Below are positions 1-10,036 of a stretch of 10,036 bases of DNA, piece after piece. Position numbers and translations under genes: made by a program. Source of the stretch: Pseudomonadota bacterium. Its GTDB lineage: Bacteria > Pseudomonadota > Gammaproteobacteria > Steroidobacterales > Steroidobacteraceae. The stretch spans positions 1 through 10,036 of the forward strand of contig JAJXZV010000229.1 of the NCBI GenBank assembly GCA_021779875.1, given 5' to 3'. How positions within the stretch are numbered: position 1 is the first letter of the stretch; each line of letters begins with the position of its first letter. The notes below the pieces were generated by a model that ran no database searches, was not told the DNA's origin, and saw nothing but the letters and a program-made list of their open reading frames with translations.

Positions 1-777
1 CTCAGGTTGTGTCGGCGTTCGCACGTCATGATTGGTTTCGGCGAAACCGTGAGGCGATTTGCCGGGAACATGCGTTGGTGCGTGTGCTCGAAGGGCCGAC
101 CATCGTTTGGCGTGCCGTGCCGTCGGGGGACGCCCTGCATCCGCTGCCGGCTCGCGTGCACCGTCGAGGCGTTGGAGGGCGAGGCCGAGTCCGGCCGGCG
201 GGCCGTGCGGCAGGTGCGGCTGGCGGGCGGCGAGCGGCTCGGCGCCGACCTCGTGGTCATGGCGGTGGGCATCCGGCCGAACACGGATCTCGCGCAGCGC
301 GCCGGCCTGCGTTGCGAGAGGGGCATCCTGGTCGACGACACGCTGCAGACCTTCGATCCGGCCATCTATGCGGTGGGCGAGTGCGTCCAGCACCGCAACA
401 GCACCTTCGGCCTGGTCGCCCCCCTGTGGGAGCAGGCGCGGGTCTGCGCGATCCACCTGGCCGAGGTGGGCGTGTCGCGCTACGTCGAACGGGTGCGCCC
501 CGTCCGGCTCCGGGTGAGCGGCATCCAGCTGTACTCCGCCGGCGAGATCGCCGACGGGCCGGGCCGCGAGGTGCTCGTCCTGCACGACGCGCGCCGGGGC
601 CTGTACCGGCGCGTCGTGCTCGAGCAGGGGCGCATGGTCGGCGTGGTGCTCCACGGCGATGCCGAGGATGCGTCCTGGTACCTGAACTGGATCGTCTCCC
701 GCGAGCCCGTCGGCGCCATGCGGGACAAGCTGCTGTTCGGCGCGGGCGCCGCGCCCGCCGTCGCGAACGCGCGGTGA
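1..777 (+). CDS. NirB-like FAD/NAD(P)H oxidoreductase, nitrate reductase electron-input subunit (5' partial)
   Basis: The visible 258 codons run from the window edge to a TGA at 775-777. From about base 137 onward the protein reads as the second half of a pyridine-nucleotide-disulfide oxidoreductase of the NirB N-terminal type. It has the AVGIRPNT segment (about 262-285), the DDTLQT...IYAVGEC FAD-binding segment (337-384) and the GLVAPLWEQAR stretch (409-441). The C-terminal domain ends in RDKLLFG, as in NirB before its [2Fe-2S] and sirohaem domains. Those domains are absent, so this is a stand-alone flavoprotein of about 400 residues when complete, not a whole nitrite reductase. Its stop overlaps the nasA start as GTGA, which implies co-translation. 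The inferred role is to take electrons from NAD(P)H and feed NasA, like Klebsiella NasC. The first ~130 bases do not resemble the expected upstream part of the family and have lower third-position GC, so a frameshift or junction is possible there. Confidence 0.85.
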   Translation, partial: LRLCRRSHVMIGFGETVRRFAGNMRWCVCSKGRPSFGVPCRRGTPCIRCRLACTVEALEGEAESGRRAVRQVRLAGGERLGADLVVMAVGIRPNTDLAQRAGLRCERGILVDDTLQTFDPAIYAVGECVQHRNSTFGLVAPLWEQARVCAIHLAEVGVSRYVERVRPVRLRVSGIQLYSAGEIADGPGREVLVLHDARRGLYRRVVLEQGRMVGVVLHGDAEDASWYLNWIVSREPVGAMRDKLLFGAGAAPAVANAR

Positions 778-3440
778 CGCCGGCCGTGCGCACCACCTGC
801 CCCTACTGCGGGGTCGGGTGCGGGATTCGCGTCGAGTTCGACGGCGAGCGGCCGCGCATCGCCGGCGACGAGGCGCACCCGGCCAATCACGGTCGGCTGT
901 GCTCGAAGGGCGCGGCGCTCGCCGACACCTTGACGCTGCCGGGCCGGCTGCTGAGGCCCAAGGTGCTCGGCCGCGAGGTCGCGTGGGACGCGGCGCTCGA
1001 GCACGTGGCCGGCGGCTTTCGGCGCATCATCGACGCGCACGGCCCCGACGCGGTCGCCTTCTACGTGTCGGGGCAGCTGCTCACCGAGGATTACTACGTC
1101 GCCAACAAGCTCATGAAGGGCTACATCGGCGCGGCGAACATCGACACCAACTCGCGCCTGTGCATGTCCTCCGCGGTGGTGGCCCACAAGCGGGCCTTCG
1201 GCGAGGACGTGGTGCCGGTGGGCTACGAGGATCTGCTCGCGGCCGACCTGATCGTGCTGGTGGGTTCGAATCTCGCCTGGTGCCACCCGGTGCTGTACCA
1301 GCGCATCGCCGCCGAGAAGGAGCGGCGGCCCGCGCTGAAGGTCGTGGTCGTCGATCCGCGCCGCACGCCGACCTGCGAACTCGCCGACCTGCACCTGCCG
1401 GTCGCCGCCGGCACCGACGTGTGGCTGTTCAACGGCCTGCTGCACGCGCTGCATCTCGGGGGCGCGGCCGATGCGGCCTTCCTCGCGCGGCACACGGCCG
1501 GGGCGGAGCAGGCGCTGCGCGCGGCCGAGGAGTCCTCGGCGGACCCGGGGACCGTCGCGGCGCGCTGCGGCCTCGAGCTCGACGCGCTACGCCGCTTCTA
1601 CGCCTGGTTCGCCGCGACCGAACGCGTCGTGACCGCGTTCTCGCAGGGGGTCAATCAATCGAGCTCGGGCGTCGACAAGGCGAACGCCGTCATCAATTGT
1701 CACCTCTACACGGGGCGCATCGGCCGGCCGGGCTGCGGACCGCTGTCGATCACCGGACAGCCGAATGCCATGGGCGGGCGCGAGGTCGGCGGCATGGCGA
1801 CCCTGCTGGCCGCGCACCGGGAGCTCGCGAACGAGGCGCATCGGCGCGAGGTGCGGGCCTTCTGGGACAGCCCGCGGATCGCCGACCGGCCCGGGCTGAT
1901 GGCGGTCGAACTGTTCGAGGCGGTGCGGGCCGGCCGGGTCCGGGCGCTGTGGATCGCGGGCACCAACCCGGTGGTGAGCCTGCCGGACGCGGATCGGGTG
2001 CGCGCGGCGCTCGAGCGCTGCGAACTCGTGGTGGTCTCCGACTGCGTCGAGGACACCGACACCAACGCGTACGCGCACGTGCTCCTGCCCGCGGCCGCCT
2101 GGGCCGAGAAGGACGGCACCGTCACCAACACCGAGCGTTGCGTGTCGCGCCAGCGGCGCTTTCTCGCGCCCCCCGGGGAGGCGCGTCCCGACTGGTGGAT
2201 GTTCTGCGAAGTGGCGAAGCGCATGGGCTTCGAGCGCGGCTTCGAGTACGCCTCCCCCCGCGAGATCTTCCTCGAGCATGCCCGGCTCGCCGCGGCCGGC
2301 GCGGGCAGCGGACGCCTGCTGGATCTCGGGGGGCTGGCGCAGCTCAGCGAGGGCCAGTACCAGGCGCTCGAGCCGGTACGCTGGCCGATCGGCGCGGCGC
2401 AGCCGTCGGCCGCGGCGCAGCCCTTCGCCGACGGCCGGTTCGGGCATCCCGACGGGCGGGCACGGCTGGTCGCAACGCCGCCGCGCCCGCCGGCGCATGC
2501 CCCGGATGCCGAGTTCCCGTGGGTGCTCAACACCGGACGTCTGCGCGATCAATGGCACACCATGACGCGCAGCGCGCGTGCCGCCCGCCTGAACCGTCAC
2601 CTGCCCGTGCCCTTCGTGGATCTCGCGGCCGAGGACGCCGCCCGGCTCGGCGCCGCGCCCGGCGACCTGGTGACCGCCGTGACCCGCTGGGGCCGGCTCG
2701 ATGCGCCGCTGCGCATCAGCGGCGAGCTGGCGCCGGGTACGGTGTTCGTGCCCATTCACTGGAGCGACGCATTTGCCGCGCAGGCGCGCGTCGGCGCCCT
2801 CGTCAGCCCGGCGGCCGACCCGTCGTCCGGGGAGCCCGAGTTCAAGCACACCCCGGTGCGCATCGAACGCATGCCGGTGGACTGGTATGGCTTCGCCGTG
2901 AGCCGCACGCCCGTGCGGACCGACGCGTTCGCCTGGTGGGCCCGGGTGCCCGGCGAGGCGCAGCAGCGCCACGAATTCGCCGGCCGGGGCCGGCCCGACT
3001 GGCCGCGCCTGGCGCGCGCGCTGCTCGGCGCGCCGCCCGACGCCGATTGGCTCGAGTACCGCGACGTCAGCGCCGGGGTGTATCGCGCGGCCCATCTGAG
3101 CGGCGACCGGCTGGAAGCCTGCCTGTTCGTCGCGCCGCGGCCGCGCTTGCCCGCGAGCGGCTGGCTCGAGGGGCTGTTCGCGCGGGCGGAGCTGTCCGCC
3201 GATGAGCGTCAGGGTCTGCTGAATGCCGCGCCGTTCCGCGCGGCGGTGGACGAGGGCCCCGTGATCTGCGCCTGCTTCGGCGTCGGCCGGCGGCGCATCG
3301 AGGCGGCGATCGGCGCCGAGGGCTGCGCCACCGTGCGCCAGATCGGCGCGCGCCTCAAGGCCGGCACCCAATGCGGTTCGTGTGTGCCGGAACTGCGCGC
3401 CATCCTCGCCGGCCGGGCCGGTTCGCCGGCCGCCGTCTGA
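774..3440 (+). CDS. nasA: Assimilatory nitrate reductase catalytic subunit with C-terminal BFD [2Fe-2S] domain
   Basis: This 888-residue cytoplasmic molybdoenzyme reduces nitrate to nitrite for nitrogen assimilation. The GTG start at 774 puts the [4Fe-4S] motif at the N-terminus, with Cys9, Cys12, Cys16 and Cys43 followed by Lys45. There is no Tat signal, which argues against periplasmic NapA. The Mo-bisMGD domains follow; Cys130, in the segment SRLCMSS, is the expected Mo ligand. The segment around TGRIGRPGCGPLSITGQPNA (about 1708-1770) is characteristic of NasA and NapA proteins. The molybdopterin dinucleotide-binding domain lies at about residues 580-700. The C-terminus carries a BFD-like [2Fe-2S] domain with Cys832-x-Cys834 and Cys867-x2-Cys870, the electron entry point in many NasA proteins. 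The length is normal for the BFD-fused form. The open frame continues upstream of 774, but that part is the shadow of the preceding gene. No Shine-Dalgarno sequence is visible; translation probably restarts from the upstream stop. Confidence 0.96.
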   Translation: MTPAVRTTCPYCGVGCGIRVEFDGERPRIAGDEAHPANHGRLCSKGAALADTLTLPGRLLRPKVLGREVAWDAALEHVAGGFRRIIDAHGPDAVAFYVSGQLLTEDYYVANKLMKGYIGAANIDTNSRLCMSSAVVAHKRAFGEDVVPVGYEDLLAADLIVLVGSNLAWCHPVLYQRIAAEKERRPALKVVVVDPRRTPTCELADLHLPVAAGTDVWLFNGLLHALHLGGAADAAFLARHTAGAEQALRAAEESSADPGTVAARCGLELDALRRFYAWFAATERVVTAFSQGVNQSSSGVDKANAVINCHLYTGRIGRPGCGPLSITGQPNAMGGREVGGMATLLAAHRELANEAHRREVRAFWDSPRIADRPGLMAVELFEAVRAGRVRALWIAGTNPVVSLPDADRVRAALERCELVVVSDCVEDTDTNAYAHVLLPAAAWAEKDGTVTNTERCVSRQRRFLAPPGEARPDWWMFCEVAKRMGFERGFEYASPREIFLEHARLAAAGAGSGRLLDLGGLAQLSEGQYQALEPVRWPIGAAQPSAAAQPFADGRFGHPDGRARLVATPPRPPAHAPDAEFPWVLNTGRLRDQWHTMTRSARAARLNRHLPVPFVDLAAEDAARLGAAPGDLVTAVTRWGRLDAPLRISGELAPGTVFVPIHWSDAFAAQARVGALVSPAADPSSGEPEFKHTPVRIERMPVDWYGFAVSRTPVRTDAFAWWARVPGEAQQRHEFAGRGRPDWPRLARALLGAPPDADWLEYRDVSAGVYRAAHLSGDRLEACLFVAPRPRLPASGWLEGLFARAELSADERQGLLNAAPFRAAVDEGPVICACFGVGRRRIEAAIGAEGCATVRQIGARLKAGTQCGSCVPELRAILAGRAGSPAAV

Positions 3441-3441
3441 T

Positions 3442-3465
3442 CGACGAGCTCAACGCTCCTCGTCG
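3442..3465. terminator. Possible bidirectional terminator hairpin between convergent genes
   Basis: CGACGAG (3442-3448) is matched by CTCGTCG (3459-3465) around a 10-base loop. An alternative inner pairing joins GAGC (3446-3449) to GCTC (3455-3458). It lies directly after the nasA stop and covers the last codons of the convergent exported-protein gene. No U-tract follows on either strand, so function as an intrinsic terminator is uncertain. Confidence 0.35.
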
Positions 3466-3875
3466 TGGCCGCGGCCATGATCCCCGTGATGGCCGTGCTC
3501 GCCGCGCCCATCGCCATGGTCATGGTGCTCCCGATAGTGCGGCACGTAGACGCCGTTGTACCAGTCGTCGCGCACGAAATAGACCGGTACCCCGCAGGCG
3601 TTGTACTCGCGGCAATGCCGGCGCCAATGGCGCTCGTGCCCCGGCGGAACGTGCAGGTACAGCGGCGCCGGCGCGACCGCGAGCCCGGCCGGAGGCGGCA
3701 GGGCGGTCACCGGTTGCGCGAACACCAGTGTCGGCGTCGGCGCGCCGGCGCCGAGGTCCAGACGGCCGTAGAAGCCGGGCTGGCCCATGGTGATGGTGAC
3801 CCCGACGTTTTGCGCAAGCGACAGGCAGGGGAGGAGCCAGGCCGTTGCCGAGAATATACATTTCATATAGTTCAT
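3450..3875 (-). CDS. Exported His-rich conserved hypothetical protein
   Basis: The 141-residue product begins with a signal peptide (residues 1-21, hydrophobic AWLLPCLSL, likely cleavage after Ala21 before Gln22). Its mature part starts NVGVTITMGQPGFYGRLDLG, followed by a Pro/Ala/Val-rich linker. Next is a compact segment at about residues 77-115 containing PPGHERHW, CREYNAC (Cys88 and Cys94, possible disulfide) and VYFVRDDWYNGVYVPHY. This pattern recalls a family of small exported proteins common in betaproteobacteria with no known function. The last 29 residues hold nine histidines among Asp, Gly and Arg, which suggests divalent metal binding, but this is inference. Start choice is uncertain: ATG at 3875 and in-frame ATG at 3866 each sit in a near-duplicated CTAT(T)ATGAA context, and neither has a clear Shine-Dalgarno sequence. 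The frame stays open further upstream, but that translation is unlike protein and lies in the intergenic region. The gene is convergent with nasA, 9 bases apart. Confidence 0.8.
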   Translation of the reverse strand: MNYMKCIFSATAWLLPCLSLAQNVGVTITMGQPGFYGRLDLGAGAPTPTLVFAQPVTALPPPAGLAVAPAPLYLHVPPGHERHWRRHCREYNACGVPVYFVRDDWYNGVYVPHYREHHDHGDGRGEHGHHGDHGRGHDEER

Positions 3876-4029
3876 AATAGCTTGTAATAAAAGAGTAAAA
3901 TGCAAATGACGACCGGCGTCGGGTGGCCCAGACTCATGCCGCGTACCGTGGCGGCGCCGGCTCATTGACTCTAGGCTAGGTTCCATTCGACCCGGCGGGA
4001 AACGTCTCACATCGGCGACGCCCGGCGGG

Positions 4030-4045
4030 CGGCCCTCGAGGGCCG
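4030..4045. repeat. 16-bp perfect palindrome, possible operator
   Basis: CGGCCCTCGAGGGCCG is perfectly self-complementary and centred on CTCGAG. It lies 43 bases upstream of the DUF6502 start and about 155 bases from the divergent gene. It directly follows the second copy of the CCCGGCGGG direct repeat. The position fits an operator, perhaps for the adjacent DUF6502 putative regulator, but perfect palindromes of this composition also arise by chance in GC-rich DNA. Confidence 0.35.
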
Positions 4046-4051
4046 GCTCGC

Positions 4052-4080
4052 TTGTTGGGATGCCGTATTTGTGAGATAAA
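4052..4080 (+). promoter_or_regulatory. Weak sigma70-like promoter for the DUF6502-DUF5666 operon
   Basis: TTGTTG (4052-4057) and GATAAA (4075-4080) are separated by exactly 17 bases. The -10 element matches TATAAT at four of six positions; the -35 element matches TTGACA only at its first three. Transcription would begin at about 4087, at or next to the ATG at 4088, and no Shine-Dalgarno sequence precedes that ATG, so a leaderless mRNA is possible. Confidence 0.3.
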
Positions 4081-4087
4081 AACACAC

Positions 4088-4915
4088 ATGCAACAGGACG
4101 CCCATCAAGCCTTGTTGGCCGCGGTGCGTCTGATGCTGAAGCCCGTGGTGCGCGTGCTTTTGCGCGGCGGCGTGCCCTTTCGAGAATTCAGCGAGCTGGC
4201 CAAGCACGCCTACGTCGAGGTCGCGAGCACGGATTTCGGCATTCGCGGCCGGCCGACCAACGTCTCGCGCACCGCGATCCTCACCGGCCTCAATCGACGC
4301 GACGTCGCCCGCATCCGCTCGGCGGAGCCCCAGGCGAGCCTCGATGCTTCTTACATGAGCGCCGGTTCGCGCGTGCTGTCCGGCTGGCACCTCGACCCGG
4401 TCTACTTGGACGTCGACGGCCGGCCGCGCCGCTTGGTGCTCGATGGGCGCGAATTGAGCTTCCAGCAGCTTGCGCACCGCTATGCCCCCGATCTGCCGCA
4501 CGTGGCCCTGTACAAGGCGCTGGCGGCGGCGCGCGCCGTGGACGTGGACGACGAGGGCATGTTGTGCGCCCTCAAGCGCAGCTTCATTCCCGGCGCCTAC
4601 GACGTCCAGCAGATCCCGCTCTGGGGCAGCATCCTGCACGACATCGGCACGACCCTGGCGCACAACATGACCCGGCCGGCGAACCAACCGCCGCGGTTCG
4701 AGCGGCGGGCCATCAATGTGCGGGTGCGCCGCACGGCCGTGAGTGAATTTCGGACGCTGCTCGCGGTCGAAGGTCAGGCCTTCCTGGAGAAGGTCGACGC
4801 CTGGTTGACGGGCCATAGCGTTCAGGCGGAAAGTGACGGTGACGAATGGTCCGCGCGGTTGGGCGTCGGCGTGTACACCATCGAGGAACATGCCGGTAAG
4901 GATCGCAATTCATGA
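4088..4915 (+). CDS. DUF6502 family protein, putative DNA-binding regulator
   Basis: The 275-residue soluble protein has no signal peptide or membrane segment. Residues ~8-75 are helical and basic, with LLRGGVPFREFSELAKHAYVE-like and TNVSRTAILTGLNRRDVARI segments. The latter resembles a helix-turn-helix, as in DUF6502 proteins, whose function is not established. A central part (about 85-165) includes SAGSRVLSGWHLDPVYLD and a possible second helical unit, FQQLAHRYAPDLPHVALYKAL. The C-terminal part (about 200-245) is basic and then helical. ATG 4088 was chosen because the family-like sequence starts there, although the frame stays open back to 4052. The stop TGA at 4913-4915 overlaps the next ATG (4912) as ATGA, and a Shine-Dalgarno-like AAGGA (4898-4902) inside this gene serves the next one. 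A transcription role, perhaps controlling this operon, is inference. Confidence 0.85.
   Translation: MQQDAHQALLAAVRLMLKPVVRVLLRGGVPFREFSELAKHAYVEVASTDFGIRGRPTNVSRTAILTGLNRRDVARIRSAEPQASLDASYMSAGSRVLSGWHLDPVYLDVDGRPRRLVLDGRELSFQQLAHRYAPDLPHVALYKALAAARAVDVDDEGMLCALKRSFIPGAYDVQQIPLWGSILHDIGTTLAHNMTRPANQPPRFERRAINVRVRRTAVSEFRTLLAVEGQAFLEKVDAWLTGHSVQAESDGDEWSARLGVGVYTIEEHAGKDRNS
4898..4902 (+). promoter_or_regulatory. Ribosome binding site of the DUF5666 gene
   Basis: AAGGA, nine bases before ATG 4912 and inside the end of the DUF6502 gene, supports 4912 over the later in-frame ATG at 4945. Confidence 0.6.
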
Positions 4916-6447
4916 CCTCCCACCAGTCCGGGATCTCCCGCCCCATGGGGCTTCCCCGCCGCCACCACGGCGGGTCCTTGGCCTCCGCCGCGGCCGCCGC
5001 GCTGCTCGCCGCGCTGGCGTCGAGCTGCGGGGGCGGCTCGACGGCTTCCAACGGCTCGCTCACAGGCACCACCACGGGCATCGAAGGCACCGGCTTCATG
5101 CATGCCCACGCCGTGAACATCGGGGCCATCAGCGGCTTCGGCAGCGTGTTTCTCGACGGCGTCGAATTCGACACCTCCACCGCGGCGGTTTCGATCGACG
5201 GGGAACCGGCGAGCGTGGCGGACCTGCGATCCGGACAGACCGTGCGGCTGACCGGCAGCATCGGCGGCACGGGTGCCACCGGCGCGGCCTCCCAGGTCGC
5301 CGCCGATACCGCGGCCCAGGGACCGATATCGGCGATCGATCGCGCGGGCTCCTCGTTCACGGTGCTCGGCCTCACGGTCATCGTGGGCCCGAACACCTCC
5401 CTGATCGGCCCGGGCGGCGCGACCCGCTTGGAGAGTCTCGCACCGGGCACGCTCGCCACCGTGAGCGCCCTCGTGGGTCCGGGCGGCGCGGTGGTGGCGA
5501 CGCGGGTCGATCTGCCGGCTTCGGTGCCCGCCTACGTGCTCACCGGCGCCGTCGTGCAGGCGGATCCGAGCACGGGCCAGTTCGTGCTCGACGGATTGAC
5601 CATCGACGGCGGCGCGGCCGTGCTCGACGGGTTTCCGGCCGGCGGCGTGCAGGACGGCCAGGTGGTCCAGGTATTCGCGCCGCCGAATCCCGCGGGAGGT
5701 GCGCTCGCGGCGACCCGGATCCGCCTGCTGCCGAGCCTCGCGGGGCAATCGGGCGACGGCGGAGTGATCGAGGGCGTGGTCTCGCAATTCGCGTCCACGA
5801 ACCACTTCGCGGTGGACGGCGTGCCCGTGGCGGTGTCCGCCGCCACCACCTACGTGGGCGGCACCGCGGCGCAATTGAAGACGAACGTGCGGGTCGCCGT
5901 GCAGGGCGGCTACGATGCCGCCGGCACCCTGAACGCCTCGGCGCTGCAATTCCTCGGCATCGATCCGGCGCTGGTGCGCGCGCCGGTGCAGGCGGTCGAC
6001 GCGGTCCACGGAACCGTCACGCTGCTCGGCGTGACCTTCGCCACCGCCTCGACCACCCGGTTCGAGGATCTGTCCGCGGCGGCGCTGCGCACGTTCAACC
6101 TGGCCGCGGTCCGCATCGGCGATTACCTGGAGGTGCGCGGCCAGCCGACCGGGGCCACCTCGGTGGCCGCCAGCGCGGTCATGCGCGAGGACGCCCCCAC
6201 CGACCAATCCGTGGAGGTCCGCGGTACGGCGAGCGCGGTCGCCGCGCCCGATCTGACCGTGCTCGGCGTGCCGGCGGTCACCGGGGCCGGCACGGCCTTT
6301 CTCGATGCCGGCGACGACAGCAGCGGCGCGAACAGCTTCTTCGCGAAGGCGCCCGGATCGGTGGTCGACCTGCGCGGCACGCTCAGCAGCGGCACGCTGC
6401 AGGTGCTGGTCGCGAAGCTCCCGAGCGAGGCCGGGCTGGACGACTGA
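4912..6447 (+). CDS. DUF5666 repeat protein, secreted or lipoprotein
   Basis: The 511-residue protein has an N-terminal export signal (basic RRHH at 16-19, hydrophobic Ala/Leu core 24-36) ending at Cys39 in LASSCGGGS. This looks like a lipoprotein site, although -3 is Ala rather than the usual Leu. After a Ser/Thr/Gly linker the rest is beta-rich. I count about six related units near residues 70-132, 137-201, 209-272, 285-347, 356-424 and 434-503. Each has the pattern of a G-x-I/V opening strand, a V-x-G-V/L-x-V strand, an x-T-x turn, a G-x-x-V-x-V-x-G strand and a closing A-x-x-I/V/L strand. This is the DUF5666 pattern, a small OB-like beta unit of unknown function. There is no catalytic motif and only one cysteine. 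The gene overlaps DUF6502 by ATGA and has a good Shine-Dalgarno sequence. It converges on the lipoprotein gene 9 bases downstream. A scaffold or binding role in the envelope is inference. Confidence 0.87.
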   Translation: MTSHQSGISRPMGLPRRHHGGSLASAAAAALLAALASSCGGGSTASNGSLTGTTTGIEGTGFMHAHAVNIGAISGFGSVFLDGVEFDTSTAAVSIDGEPASVADLRSGQTVRLTGSIGGTGATGAASQVAADTAAQGPISAIDRAGSSFTVLGLTVIVGPNTSLIGPGGATRLESLAPGTLATVSALVGPGGAVVATRVDLPASVPAYVLTGAVVQADPSTGQFVLDGLTIDGGAAVLDGFPAGGVQDGQVVQVFAPPNPAGGALAATRIRLLPSLAGQSGDGGVIEGVVSQFASTNHFAVDGVPVAVSAATTYVGGTAAQLKTNVRVAVQGGYDAAGTLNASALQFLGIDPALVRAPVQAVDAVHGTVTLLGVTFATASTTRFEDLSAAALRTFNLAAVRIGDYLEVRGQPTGATSVAASAVMREDAPTDQSVEVRGTASAVAAPDLTVLGVPAVTGAGTAFLDAGDDSSGANSFFAKAPGSVVDLRGTLSSGTLQVLVAKLPSEAGLDD

Positions 6448-6456
6448 CCGGCCGGG

Positions 6457-7029
6457 TCAATTCGTGCCGGCGTGGCTCAGGAACCGGGTCAACGCCTCGC
6501 GCCCGTCACCCGACAGCGCGAACGGCGCGTCGAGCGGCTCGTGCGGCATGCGCAGCGTGATCTCGCGGCTTTGGGCCAGGAAGCGCAGCAGCGCGCCGTC
6601 GACCCGGTACGCATAGGGCCGCACGTCGCCGTGGTTGGGCACGTGCAGCAGGCGGCGGTGCGTGAGGTCGACCGGCAGCCGCTCGAGCGGCGCGAGGTCG
6701 ATGCGCCGGCCGTCGGCGAGGATCCGCAGCGTCCCCGCATCCGCGCCGGCCGGCGGCAGCATGCGCCGATCGACGGTGGACCACCGATACAGCAGCAGGT
6801 AATCGCTGCCCGAGCCCGACCGGTCGACGTCGATGGCGACCAGGGTGGCGTAATCGTGGGCGTACGCGGCCAGGTCGAAGCGGTCGCGCGCGAACACCAG
6901 CGGCTCGGCGGCGACCAGCATCGTGCTCGCGGTGCGCTCGTCGAAGACTTCCCGCGGCGCGTGCGCCGGCCGCGAGGCGCAGGCGCACAGCGCCGTCAGG
7001 GCGAGCAACGTGAGTCTCTGCGGTCGCAT
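6457..7029 (-). CDS. Small putative outer-membrane lipoprotein, unrecognised family
   Basis: The 190-residue product begins with a short basic n-region and the hydrophobic core LTLLALTALCAC. Cys17, preceded by Leu14-Cys15-Ala16, fits a lipobox; Cys15 is the alternative. Residue +2 after Cys17 is Ala, so outer-membrane sorting is expected. The mature part is mixed alpha/beta without internal cysteines. Notable stretches are residues ~41-75, ending in a DVDRSGSGSDYLLLYRWSTVD segment, a strand-rich middle with RRLLHVPNHGDVRPYAYRVDG, and a C-terminal helix. I do not recognise the family. Its ATG lies 4 bases after the stop of the upstream outer-membrane protein gene, so it is almost surely the third gene of that operon and probably a partner of the barrel. 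The stop is 9 bases from the convergent DUF5666 gene. Confidence 0.82.
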   Translation of the reverse strand: MRPQRLTLLALTALCACASRPAHAPREVFDERTASTMLVAAEPLVFARDRFDLAAYAHDYATLVAIDVDRSGSGSDYLLLYRWSTVDRRMLPPAGADAGTLRILADGRRIDLAPLERLPVDLTHRRLLHVPNHGDVRPYAYRVDGALLRFLAQSREITLRMPHEPLDAPFALSGDGREALTRFLSHAGTN

Positions 7030-7033
7030 GGGC

Positions 7034-9529
7034 TCAGAAGCGTATCCGATACGCGAGGTTCACATAAAGAGACCTCTGGTCCACCCCGGCGGACTGCACC
7101 TGGCCGGTCGGCGTGAGCGGCTGCTGGACCGCGATCTGGTTCTGCAGCTGGTAGCCGGCGATCAGCTCGAACACCTGGCGGCCGCCGGTCCAGTCGCTGC
7201 GGACCTGCGGCAGGTACACGATCTGCTTGCCGCCGAGGGTCGGATCGTTCAGCTGCTCGACGCTGAAGCGCGGACCGAGGCGCCACGCGCCGTACACGAC
7301 GAAGCGTGCGTCCCAGGAGTAGGTCATGCTGCGCGCGAGCGGCGAATCGTCGAACCGCAGGCTGAAGATGTGCAGATCGCTCGCCTGGATGAGGCTCGAG
7401 CCCGAGAATTGCACGGACGCGTTCTTGTCGAGGCCGGTGGACGGCATCGCCGGCACGCCCGGGAAGCCGGTGGCCTGGACCGCCGGCGACGCCGGCGTGC
7501 CCGACAGCTCGAGGGCGCCCAGATCCGCCATGAACTGCCAGCGCTCGCCCAGGGAACGGCTCGCCGACAGCACCAGGGTGTCGCTGATCGCGGTGCGGTC
7601 GAGCGCGAGCTGCCGCAGCTGCTGGGGGGTCAACTGATATTGGGCCTGCAGCGCCGCCACGTCGGGTGAATTCAATCCGATGAGCGAGTTGCTGAGTTCG
7701 AGCAGCGGGCTGCGGCGGTGATCGGCGTCGAATCCGAGCACCCAGGACTCCCCGACCTTCGCGTTGCCGATCAGGGTCGCCGAATTGAGCTGCTGGAACG
7801 CGATGTCGTAGTCGACCAGGATCACCGCGGTTCGCCCGGATTCGCTGTAGCGGGTCTGCAAGCCGATCGAGCGGCGCTCCGTGAGGCCGGCGTTGATCTG
7901 ATCGAACGCGTACACGTCGAACACCCAGGTCTGGTGGAACGGATCGAACTCGGCCGTCACGGTGCCGAATTTCTGCTGGCCGGTGCCCGTCGTGAAGCCG
8001 GTGTACACCGGCAGGCCCGCCGCGGCGCTCACCGACCATTTCGGGTTCAGCTGCAGGCCCACGAACGCCCCGTCGAACAATCCGACGATGCCCTGTGAGG
8101 CGAGGGTCTGGCGGCCGAAGCGGCCGGTCAGGCCGAAGGTCTTGTCGGTGACCTCGAGGTAGGCCGCGGTGGTCTGATCCTGGTTGCCGAGATTGAACGT
8201 CGAGACGAAGTTCTGTGCGTAACCGGCATCGATCCGCGCCGTGAAATCGTAACGTTCGCCGCGGTCGCGCAGCAGCAGGTCGCCGTATACCAGCGCCGAG
8301 CTCAGGGTGTTGTTGGTCGTGGTGTTGCCGAGCGACACCGTTTGATCCTTGCCGTATTGATAGCTCACCGAGGCGCTGCCCGCCATGGTCCAGCGCTCCG
8401 GGGCGGCCGCCTGGAAGGTCGTCCCCGAGCTCGGCTGCAGGGACGCCGAGATCAGCGCCTGCAGACGGCTGCGGACCCGCGCCGCCGCCGCGCCGTTCGG
8501 GTAGCGGCGCAGGTACTCCTCGTACTCGGCCTTGGCCTGCGCGAGCTGGCCGGCGCGCTCGCGCACCAGGCCGAGCAGTTCCTGGGCGTCGGCGCGCGCG
8601 GGGTATTCCGGCTGGCGCAGCAGACGGGTGAGCAGATCGACCGCCTCCGGGAAGCGGCGCTGATCGAGCGCCTGGCGCGCATCCTTCAGCATCTTCGCGC
8701 GCTGCTCGTCGGGCAGCGGCGGATCGGTGGGCGCGGCGGCGGCCGGCGCGGTCACGCCGGCCCGATCGACCACGGCGATGTCCGCCTGCTCGTCGCCTTC
8801 GGCGATCCAGGCGCGCGGATAGTTCGGCTGGGCGATCGCGAGCACCCGCTGCGCCTCGGCGCGCGTCGCGAACGGGCCGACGCGCAGGCGGTACCAATGC
8901 TCGCCCTCGAGGTCGGTCTCCGACACGTAGGCCTGGGCCTGCAGGGCCGTGGCGGCGGCCTCGACCGTCTCGCGCGCGATCGCGCTGCGCGAGGAGTCGA
9001 GATTGACCGAATACCCGGCAGGCGTCTGCGGTTCCGCGAGCAGGCCCGTGCCCTTGCGCGGCTTCGGATACAGCAGCCGCACGCGCAGCCCCGAGCCCGA
9101 GGCGCTCGGGGCCATGACGAAGTCGAGCGTGCGCGACCAGGTCAGTTCGAGCATGACCTCGCCCGGGATGGTCGCGTCGAGACGCGCGCCGGTGACCAGC
9201 TTGCCGCCGCCGCCCACCAGCGGCAGCTCCGGCGGCAGGGCGCCGAATTGCGTGCCGCAATCGGCGCCGAGGCGCAGCGTGATCCGCGTGTGATCGCCGC
9301 GGCTCGCGGGGGCGCTGCCCACGTAGAACACGGTGCAGGCGAACTGCACGGTGATGTCGGCGTGATCCTCGAGTTCCTGGGCGTCGATGTACTGCACCAG
9401 GGGACCCGACAAGAAGCCGGCCGCGCGCGCGCGCACGGGGCACAGGAAGGCCGCGACGCACAGCGCCAGCAGGACGCCCAGAGCCGCCGGCCGCACGGGC
9501 TCCAGGCCGCGCTCTCCGGCCCCCGTCAC
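7034..9529 (-). CDS. SPOR-TPR-beta-barrel outer-membrane protein
   Basis: The GTG start at 9529 overlaps the TGA of the multiheme cytochrome gene as GTGA; the frame is open further upstream, but that part is the cytochrome shadow. The 831-residue product has a signal peptide (hydrophobic core ~16-30, cleavage near ARA-AG at 35-38). A beta-rich domain follows (38-155, two cysteines at 65 and 91, possible disulfide, vaguely AMIN-like, not assigned). Next is a SPOR-type domain (about 172-242: GYSVNLDS, then HWYRLRVGPFATRAEAQRVL). After a Pro/Ala linker come TPR-like helices (about 280-355, with RRFPEAVDLLTRLL and GQLAQAKAEYEEYLRRYPNG). Residues ~380-831 alternate polar and hydrophobic strands with aromatic girdles and end in AYRIRF, the terminal Phe typical of BAM-inserted barrels. 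SPOR suggests peptidoglycan contact and TPR suggests protein docking. The substrate is unknown; passage of a polymer or of the neighbouring cytochrome's electrons is inference. There is no CxxCH motif in this protein. Confidence 0.88.
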   Translation of the reverse strand: MTGAGERGLEPVRPAALGVLLALCVAAFLCPVRARAAGFLSGPLVQYIDAQELEDHADITVQFACTVFYVGSAPASRGDHTRITLRLGADCGTQFGALPPELPLVGGGGKLVTGARLDATIPGEVMLELTWSRTLDFVMAPSASGSGLRVRLLYPKPRKGTGLLAEPQTPAGYSVNLDSSRSAIARETVEAAATALQAQAYVSETDLEGEHWYRLRVGPFATRAEAQRVLAIAQPNYPRAWIAEGDEQADIAVVDRAGVTAPAAAAPTDPPLPDEQRAKMLKDARQALDQRRFPEAVDLLTRLLRQPEYPARADAQELLGLVRERAGQLAQAKAEYEEYLRRYPNGAAAARVRSRLQALISASLQPSSGTTFQAAAPERWTMAGSASVSYQYGKDQTVSLGNTTTNNTLSSALVYGDLLLRDRGERYDFTARIDAGYAQNFVSTFNLGNQDQTTAAYLEVTDKTFGLTGRFGRQTLASQGIVGLFDGAFVGLQLNPKWSVSAAAGLPVYTGFTTGTGQQKFGTVTAEFDPFHQTWVFDVYAFDQINAGLTERRSIGLQTRYSESGRTAVILVDYDIAFQQLNSATLIGNAKVGESWVLGFDADHRRSPLLELSNSLIGLNSPDVAALQAQYQLTPQQLRQLALDRTAISDTLVLSASRSLGERWQFMADLGALELSGTPASPAVQATGFPGVPAMPSTGLDKNASVQFSGSSLIQASDLHIFSLRFDDSPLARSMTYSWDARFVVYGAWRLGPRFSVEQLNDPTLGGKQIVYLPQVRSDWTGGRQVFELIAGYQLQNQIAVQQPLTPTGQVQSAGVDQRSLYVNLAYRIRF

Positions 9530-10036
9530 TTGGCCGGACCGCTGGCGGTGGGCTTTGCGGGCGGCGGCGCCGAGGGCGCCGGCGCGGGGACCTGAGCGGG
9601 CGGACTCATCGGCGCCACGACGTTCCAACCGAGCGTGTTGTGGCAGGTGCCGCAGTCCCGGGTGGTGATGAGGTGCCGCGGCTGCTTGCCCGTGGCGGCG
9701 ACGCCGTTGTGGCAGCTCTGGCAGAGGGCACTGACGCCGAGATGGTTGAAGCGCGCGGCGGACCAGGACAGCACCCCGTGGCAGGTGCCGCAGTCGCGCG
9801 CCGTGGACACGTGCCGCGCCGGCATGCCCGGCGCACGGACGCCATTGTGACAGCTGACGCAGCTCGCGCTCACGCCGCGATGGTCGAAGCGCGCCGGCGT
9901 CCAGCCGAGCGTGGTGTGGCAGTTCTCGCAGGCGCCGTTGCTCGCCACGTGCGCCGCCGGCTTGCCCGCGGCGAGGACGCCGTTGTGGCAGCTCGCGCAA
10001 TTGGCGGTCACGCCCGCGTGCGAGGGCGCCGCCGCG
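9526..10036 (-). CDS. Multiheme c-type cytochrome with 46-residue diheme repeats (5' partial)
   Basis: About 169 residues are visible; the N-terminus lies beyond the window. Six CxxCH haem c motifs are present (CASCH, CENCH, CVSCH, CGTCH, CQSCH, CGTCH). They form a repeat of exactly 46 residues (138 bases): CxxCH-NGV, a G-K/M-x-x-x-H stretch, a second CxxCH, then L-x-W...F-D/N-H and GVSA. Each repeat has two haems and two further conserved His (in the P-x-x-H and F-x-H positions), enough for bis-His ligation of both haems. The sequence at the window edge (PSHAGVTANC) matches the end of another repeat, so more haems lie upstream. After the last motif the protein ends in a Pro/Ala-rich tail of about 30 residues. 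This fits the cytochrome c3-like CHNG-repeat proteins of electron-transferring proteobacteria. Export to the periplasm is required for haem attachment. The stop overlaps the next gene's start as GTGA. Confidence 0.9.
   Translation of the reverse strand, partial: AAAPSHAGVTANCASCHNGVLAAGKPAAHVASNGACENCHTTLGWTPARFDHRGVSASCVSCHNGVRAPGMPARHVSTARDCGTCHGVLSWSAARFNHLGVSALCQSCHNGVAATGKQPRHLITTRDCGTCHNTLGWNVVAPMSPPAQVPAPAPSAPPPAKPTASGPAK

Follow-up and report, generated by a model that had tools for sequence, protein, structure and literature searches.

What is encoded by three tightly coupled genes at the end of a contig, when the first is a multiheme cytochrome and the second an outer-membrane barrel? 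The question is raised by a stretch of 10,036 nucleotides from a Steroidobacteraceae metagenome-assembled genome (MAG; GCA_021779875.1, contig JAJXZV010000229.1), hereafter the window, which is the entire contig C60 of a 451-contig MAG that is 72% complete. Encoded on its minus strand are the C-terminal end of a multiheme cytochrome (9526-10035), a porin (7034-9529) and a lipoprotein (6457-7029); together they are probably the 3' end of an operon of the PCC3 porin-cytochrome type, predicted to form a trans-envelope electron conduit. The contig end falls inside the cytochrome gene and cuts off its 5' end, so the three genes are the visible tail of an operon that is longer in relatives. The cytochrome stop TGA (9526-9528) and the barrel start GTG (9527-9529) share the letters GTGA, and the barrel stop (7034-7036) is followed by a 4-base gap, GCCC, and by the lipoprotein ATG at 7029. 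The features, all on the minus strand, are as follows.

9526-10035, minus: C-terminal part of an extracellular-type multiheme cytochrome, 5' end cut (Cytochrome_C7 2e-13, Paired_CXXCH_1 8e-9)
9640-9999, minus: hexaheme module, its six CXXCH motifs at intervals of exactly 23 residues (motif spacing; also ends this cytochrome in several relatives)
9526-9615, minus: Pro/Ala-rich cytochrome tail (translation)
9526-9529, minus: GTGA shared by the cytochrome stop and the barrel start (sequence)
7034-9529, minus: PCC3-type porin, 831 residues, GTG start (homologue search, AlphaFold model)
9422-9529, minus: probable signal peptide, porin residues 1-36 (by eye; model helix 14-26, pLDDT 36-57)
9071-9397, minus: N-terminal beta domain, residues 45-153 (alignment, model)
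8804-9016, minus: SPOR domain, residues 172-242 (PF05036, E 3.8e-8, over the Pfam cut-off; model)
8438-8710, minus: tetratricopeptide (TPR) helices, residues 274-364 (TPR profile matches, CpoB 1.3e-5, model)
7040-8392, minus: predicted 22-strand beta barrel, residues 380-830 (model; strands hand-counted from the DSSP line)
7598-7696, minus: helical loop joining strand 13 to strand 14, residues 612-644 (model; outside placement suggested by strand parity)
6457-7029, minus: small lipoprotein gene, 190 residues, adjoining the porin (lipobox-like context; no known family)

An original prediction, made from the letters alone, had described three minus-strand genes joined by the GTGA overlap and the 4-base gap, and the re-checked coordinates bear this out. 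Its repeat-built cytochrome is confirmed by 6 CXXCH motifs in the 169 visible residues at spacings of 23, 23, 23, 23 and 23 (three or more CXXCH occurred in 0 of 20,000 residue shuffles), its barrel with peptidoglycan-binding and TPR parts by a SPOR match over the cut-off and by the TPR-like helices and barrel of the model, and its lipoprotein by a Cys at residue 17 in the lipobox-like context L-C-A-C.

The operon in relatives

PCC3 was named by He et al. in 2017 (PMC5566968) and defined by four components: a porin, an extracellular cytochrome with a median of 34 hemes, a periplasmic one with a median of 21, and an inner-membrane protein (IMP) of ~300 residues with five helices, an SGXXG motif and two WX3HX13H motifs. 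The same gene set, IMP motifs, predicted periplasmic 21-heme cytochrome, predicted large outer cytochrome and porin are found in relatives of the window, which were sampled in three sets. An order-level set of 20 neighbourhoods (L031-L050) was fetched via the porin. A named set (L051-L130) was fetched via the IMP as the best 80 of the 219 named loci and came to 72 after eight repeat contigs were dropped (L051, L061, L069, L071, L103, L109, L113 and L125); IMP counts in these 72 are not independent, the loci having been found through the IMP. Barrels of more than 350 residues are held by 37 of them, and the 35 others have at most 6.1 kb after the IMP or a cut barrel (L101), L056 and L074 excepted. 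A class-wide set of 50 loci came from 43 of the 46 genomes matched by the porin profile, the other three being already in the earlier sets, and was brought to 49 by dropping L205, which is without a long barrel. Open reading frames (ORFs) were called with our own script, with over-extended starts, and intergenic gaps are approximate.

Porin matches at E<=1e-3 occur in 26 of 60 relative genomes (the window's own included), 20 of them at E<=1.2e-62; the other six (best E 1e-6 to 7e-4) cover 77-122 residues within the SPOR/TPR region. The closest porins with named entries include those of Steroidobacteraceae, Steroidobacterales and Nevskiales MAGs. The profile matches 46 of 369 class-wide genomes (a few being barrel-only relatives), a spread over many families of Gammaproteobacteria. 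Thiogranum longum is a cultured, named host. A search for plasmid copies with the L160 porin as query gave no match.

The usual gene order is IMP, 21-heme cytochrome, large cytochrome and porin, followed in this lineage by the lipoprotein gene. By way of exception, L058, L059, L060, L068, L078 and L081 have both the porin and the large cytochrome encoded on the opposite strand, and the IMP gene comes after the lipoprotein gene in L048 and L063, far upstream in L069 and on the other strand in L194. The original prediction had proposed a search of genome neighbourhoods, in which barrels mostly without a multiheme cytochrome neighbour would count against it; in 95 of 106 loci the barrel gene has a multiheme cytochrome gene as its direct neighbour, and among the 11 others six are cut by contig ends and five have room but no cytochrome, so the prediction was not refuted on this count.

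Both WX3HX13H motifs and SGXXG are present in 13/13, 71/71 and 28/30 complete IMP ORFs. Because the peptide patterns used to fetch the 71 already contained a portion of the first motif, the set of 30, found via the porin, is the fairer one; its two misses are pieces of one split gene in L186. An IMP gene lies within the fetched stretch in 14 of the 20 and 28 of the 49 porin-found loci. Across the 60 relatives, a strong IMP match (E<1e-20) occurs in 18 of 20 full-porin genomes versus 0 of 40 others (p 2e-13), and the association holds at p 5e-9 when weaker matches in five of the 40 (E 1e-16 to 2e-12) are counted in. IMP and porin lie on different contigs in G004, G012, G020 and G021, a hint that assembly often fails within the repetitive gene of the giant cytochrome, where the window too is broken off.

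Among 115 loci with an IMP, 104 have a complete adjoining cytochrome, five a cut one and six none there. These 104 cytochromes, predicted to be periplasmic, carry 21 hemes in 99 cases, 18 in three and 24 in two, numbers that are multiples of a three-heme unit with spacings near 17, 18 and 33. The distance from first to last heme of the 21-heme form is 454-465 residues in 98 of the 99 loci, and its 20 heme spacings deviate by at most two residues from the modal pattern in 92. The outer cytochrome is, unlike its 21-heme partner, constrained neither in heme number nor in length: 80 complete ORFs carry 9-69 hemes (median 35), with up to 60 in the window's family (L044) and 69 class-wide. The near-constant length of the 21-heme cytochrome is as would be expected of an inner wire that has to fit a gap of set width, a demand that an outer wire would not face. 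A 21-heme partner of nearly fixed length beside a free-length outer cytochrome was not found described in the searchable papers.

In Gallionellaceae, PCC3 periplasmic cytochromes have 21, 24 and 27 hemes and outer ones 10-35, and the models are long and mostly linear, for which a periplasm-spanning role was suggested (PMC10734462). The 21- and 24-heme forms and the spanning idea are shared, whereas the outer cytochromes studied here reach the 60 and 69 hemes given above, and neither the near-constant 21-heme spacing nor a wall anchor of the porin appears in the accessible text of that paper.

In the window's genus, the outer cytochrome ends in one separate hexaheme module with an exact 23-residue period, which sets it apart from the PCC3 of He et al. 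The module is present in L033-L037 and L039-L043 (ten of the first set) and in L098, one spacing is 24 in L038, and 65-119 residues separate the module from the previous heme where that stretch is included. Outside the genus (L175 apart), cytochrome ends vary, often with final spacings of 23, 31 or 32, and 22. A second large cytochrome with 47 hemes directly follows the porin in L168 (10502-13966), where a 23-heme one precedes it, and the cytochrome ORF in L178 (2-7237), truncated at the edge of the fetched stretch, has 78 or more CXXCH.

Porin modules and the lipoprotein

The AlphaFold model of the porin places TPR-like helices ahead of the 22-strand barrel. TPR models match the window porin at E 1e-5 to 0.04, all below the Pfam cut-offs, and TPR_9 was detected in 49 of 57 porins; SPOR is detectable in 69 of 102. 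The N-terminal beta domain holds two cysteines, Cys 65 and Cys 91, that are invariant in 57 aligned rows. The domain has no Pfam family in the window and no match to a PDB sequence better than E 0.27, and the search for a known family among 17 members gave no Pfam family in more than one of them at E<=1. In a number of other families it is a gene of its own, as in L164, L171, L181, L189 and others, where it is ~150-200 residues long and sits between the genes for the large cytochrome and the porin.

SPOR and TPR modules ahead of a predicted 22-strand barrel were not found described in the searchable papers. Indeed, no paper was found that joins SPOR or tetratricopeptide with PCC3, multiheme, porin or Sideroxydans, in a search outside which lay supplements, figures and most subscription journals; the accessible part of the MHCscan paper mentions neither PCC3 nor SPOR, and the text of He et al., figures and supplements apart, does not mention SPOR or TPR in the porin.

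The lipoprotein gene, a fifth member in this lineage, is a further difference from the PCC3 of He et al., and it too was not found described in the searchable papers. Of the 20 order-level loci all but L043 have it, as do 26 of the 37 named barrel loci and 0 of 49 class-wide loci. Among the 11 named loci lacking the gene, L076, L091, L126 and L130 break off no more than 414 bases from the porin and the other seven (L058, L059, L068, L078, L081, L094 and L098) have room. L060 carries the gene at another place in the locus and on the other strand. The lipobox pattern occurs in 40 of 53 listed rows (duplicates included), and no Cys stands at the expected place in L045, L082 and L110. The protein has no Pfam match, and its model (pLDDT 89.9) found no named fold, the best PDB match being at E 0.052; it is probably an outer-membrane assembly or docking factor.

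Electron path and competing explanations

A conduit spanning the whole envelope has already been proposed for PCC3, with electron exchange between IMP and quinones via two b hemes (PMC5566968), and PCCs, in some cases with over 20 hemes, have been published from MAGs of caves and groundwater (PMC13264449). Along such a path, the IMP would exchange electrons with quinones through its two b hemes, the 21-heme cytochrome would serve as a fixed-length wire across the periplasm, and the barrel would sheathe the route through the outer membrane, from which the giant cytochrome could reach outward to minerals, partners or electrodes. SPOR domains bind peptidoglycan and TPR domains dock; here SPOR may pin the porin to the peptidoglycan and TPR may dock the 21-heme wire at the barrel mouth. 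Electrons could then pass between the quinone pool, the b-type IMP, the 21-heme wire, the wall-anchored porin and the outer wire in either direction. Systems of the Mtr type depend on soluble shuttles, as MtrA cannot bridge the ~200 Å periplasm (PMC7096707); a 21-heme partner of fixed length, together with a porin anchored to the wall, would, if real, be a different answer to this gap. The full proposal, that PCC3 is a mechanically anchored, measured wire with a fixed 21-heme bridge dispensing with shuttles, a peptidoglycan-bound sleeve of SPOR, TPR and 22 strands, an outer cytochrome growing by repeat duplication and the lipoprotein as fifth subunit, is tentative, and we hold it slightly less likely to be right than wrong. 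As far as could be searched, it would add to the literature the porin architecture and anchor, the rule of fixed versus free length (a ruler) and the lineage-specific lipoprotein.

The original prediction had announced a candidate new system, either an electron conduit of a design other than MtrAB or an apparatus for assembling and secreting cytochrome filaments. The novelty falls away, since gene order, heme numbers and IMP motifs are those of the PCC3 published in 2017 (PMC5566968). The conduit of non-MtrAB design stands, given the frequent cytochrome adjacency and the Pfam family MtrB_PioB (PF11854), which matches 0 of 102 porins (0/57 and 0/45) and nothing in the window's MAG. A diverged MtrAB/MtoAB homologue, although it would share with MtrCAB, MtoAB and PioAB the plan of a porin with periplasmic and outer multiheme cytochromes, is largely refuted by sequence and highly improbable, and homology to MtrAB was rejected on the lack of MtrB_PioB matches. 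Furthermore, MtrB_PioB genes occur independently of the porin (4 of 20 porin genomes, 10 of 40 others), the IMP-adjoining cytochromes, with their 18, 21 or 24 hemes, are not of the decaheme MtrA type, and SPOR and TPR precede a barrel of 22 strands in the model, against 26 in MtrB. The visible cytochrome fragment scores 31.7 bits with the DmsE/MtrA model (cut-off 192.2), a weak test as the gene is cut, and MtrB is not among the 50 structural matches listed, which carries no weight either way. The Methylobacter conduit in print is of the MtrB/PioB type.

The barrel might instead serve chiefly for secretion or assembly, as the pore through which the giant cytochrome, or a filament of cytochromes, is exported, with TPR and SPOR as export docking modules. 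PgaA and BcsC do share the arrangement of a TPR region followed by an outer-membrane barrel, pilus ushers are among the structural matches at low identity, and TPR_Slam, the TPR part of surface-lipoprotein exporters, is matched in 4 of 102 porins. These hints are weak, the TPR_Slam matches (E 0.004-0.007) coming from a TPR family with no other exporter family standing out in the 102 porins, and the PgaA and BcsC barrels have 16 strands, not the 22 of the model, and lack the SPOR domain and cytochrome partners found here. Moreover, the heme-type IMP recurs in the porin-found loci as an electron path predicts, and we consider export unlikely. Less likely still is a large cytochrome that stores electrons or lies in the periplasm, next to a barrel that is a pore for metals or solutes only: a capacitor role has been discussed for PCC3 (PMC10734462) and the extracellular placement of the giant cytochrome is here a prediction, but tight gene coupling and the constant 21-heme partner would fit a conduit better. 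TonB-dependent receptors such as PirA (5fp2) differ in their neighbours, show 10% identity in the alignment and have no counterpart to the SPOR and TPR ahead of the barrel.

Several observations weigh against the PCC3 conduit. The porin was likened to published PCC3 porins by description and not by sequence, 33 of the 102 porins have no detectable SPOR, and the docking roles of SPOR and TPR are ones that we infer. The pTM of the porin model is only 0.68, the top Foldseek rows are smaller porins at TM <=0.50, and the Z scores of PirA and of CymA, which is a smaller porin, are level (15.5-15.9, rmsd 7.0-7.7). Neither the IMP nor the 21-heme cytochrome was found in the window's own MAG, which is incomplete and whose contig ends first; the rest of the operon was sought elsewhere in that assembly and not found, so the assignment of this genome to PCC3 rests on its relatives. 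G013 (82% complete) has the porin without an IMP, L056 and L074 have an IMP and ~10 kb after it without a barrel, and the five porin relatives L186, L198, L199, L204 and L206 have 6-9 kb of upstream DNA without a cytochrome, L204 and L206 being barrel-only. These loci may reflect loss or reuse, but they show that the porin can occur on its own. In L186 (9099-10881), IMP and porin genes are both broken and no multiheme cytochrome lies in the stretch, apparently a decaying conduit.

A 2025 paper calls PCC3 functionally unverified. In Sideroxydans ES-1, both PCC3 clusters are downregulated on Fe(II) (PMC8788666), and the outer cytochrome Slit_1448 is 0 in eight of eight proteome columns where its porin and IMP are above 0 (PMC12016527); this argues against dissolved Fe(II) as the PCC3 substrate there. 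Strain CL21 expresses both copies at above-mean levels; toward the iron-oxidising stage, copy 1 declines and copy 2 increases, and the only significant change is an increase of the copy 2 IMP gene (PMC12442390).

Neighbouring genes

The window's MAG carries a RuBisCO large-subunit gene (G000:C122:407-1330), and RuBisCO is present in 11 of 20 porin genomes versus 8 of 40 others (p 0.009, uncorrected for kinship), which is only a hint of a lifestyle marker. Next to the conduit, DUF6502 and DUF5666 genes overlap head to tail on the plus strand (4052-6447). The pair also adjoins the conduit in L031, L049 and L203, and DUF5666 alone does so in L180; the DUF5666 protein has a lipoprotein-like CGGGS start. 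No relevant paper on either family was found, as judged by title and start of abstract.

At the other end, positions 1-777 (plus) encode a C-terminal fragment of a NirB-like reductase, cut at the contig start, which is overlapped by a molybdopterin oxidoreductase gene (774-3440, plus) resembling NasC, NasA and formate dehydrogenases and bearing a BFD [2Fe-2S] domain. These matches lie below the models' curated cut-offs, and L031 has the same gene order. A small protein with no assigned family, encoded at 3450-4085 on the minus strand, has a counterpart in L031 with 64% identity over 132 residues.

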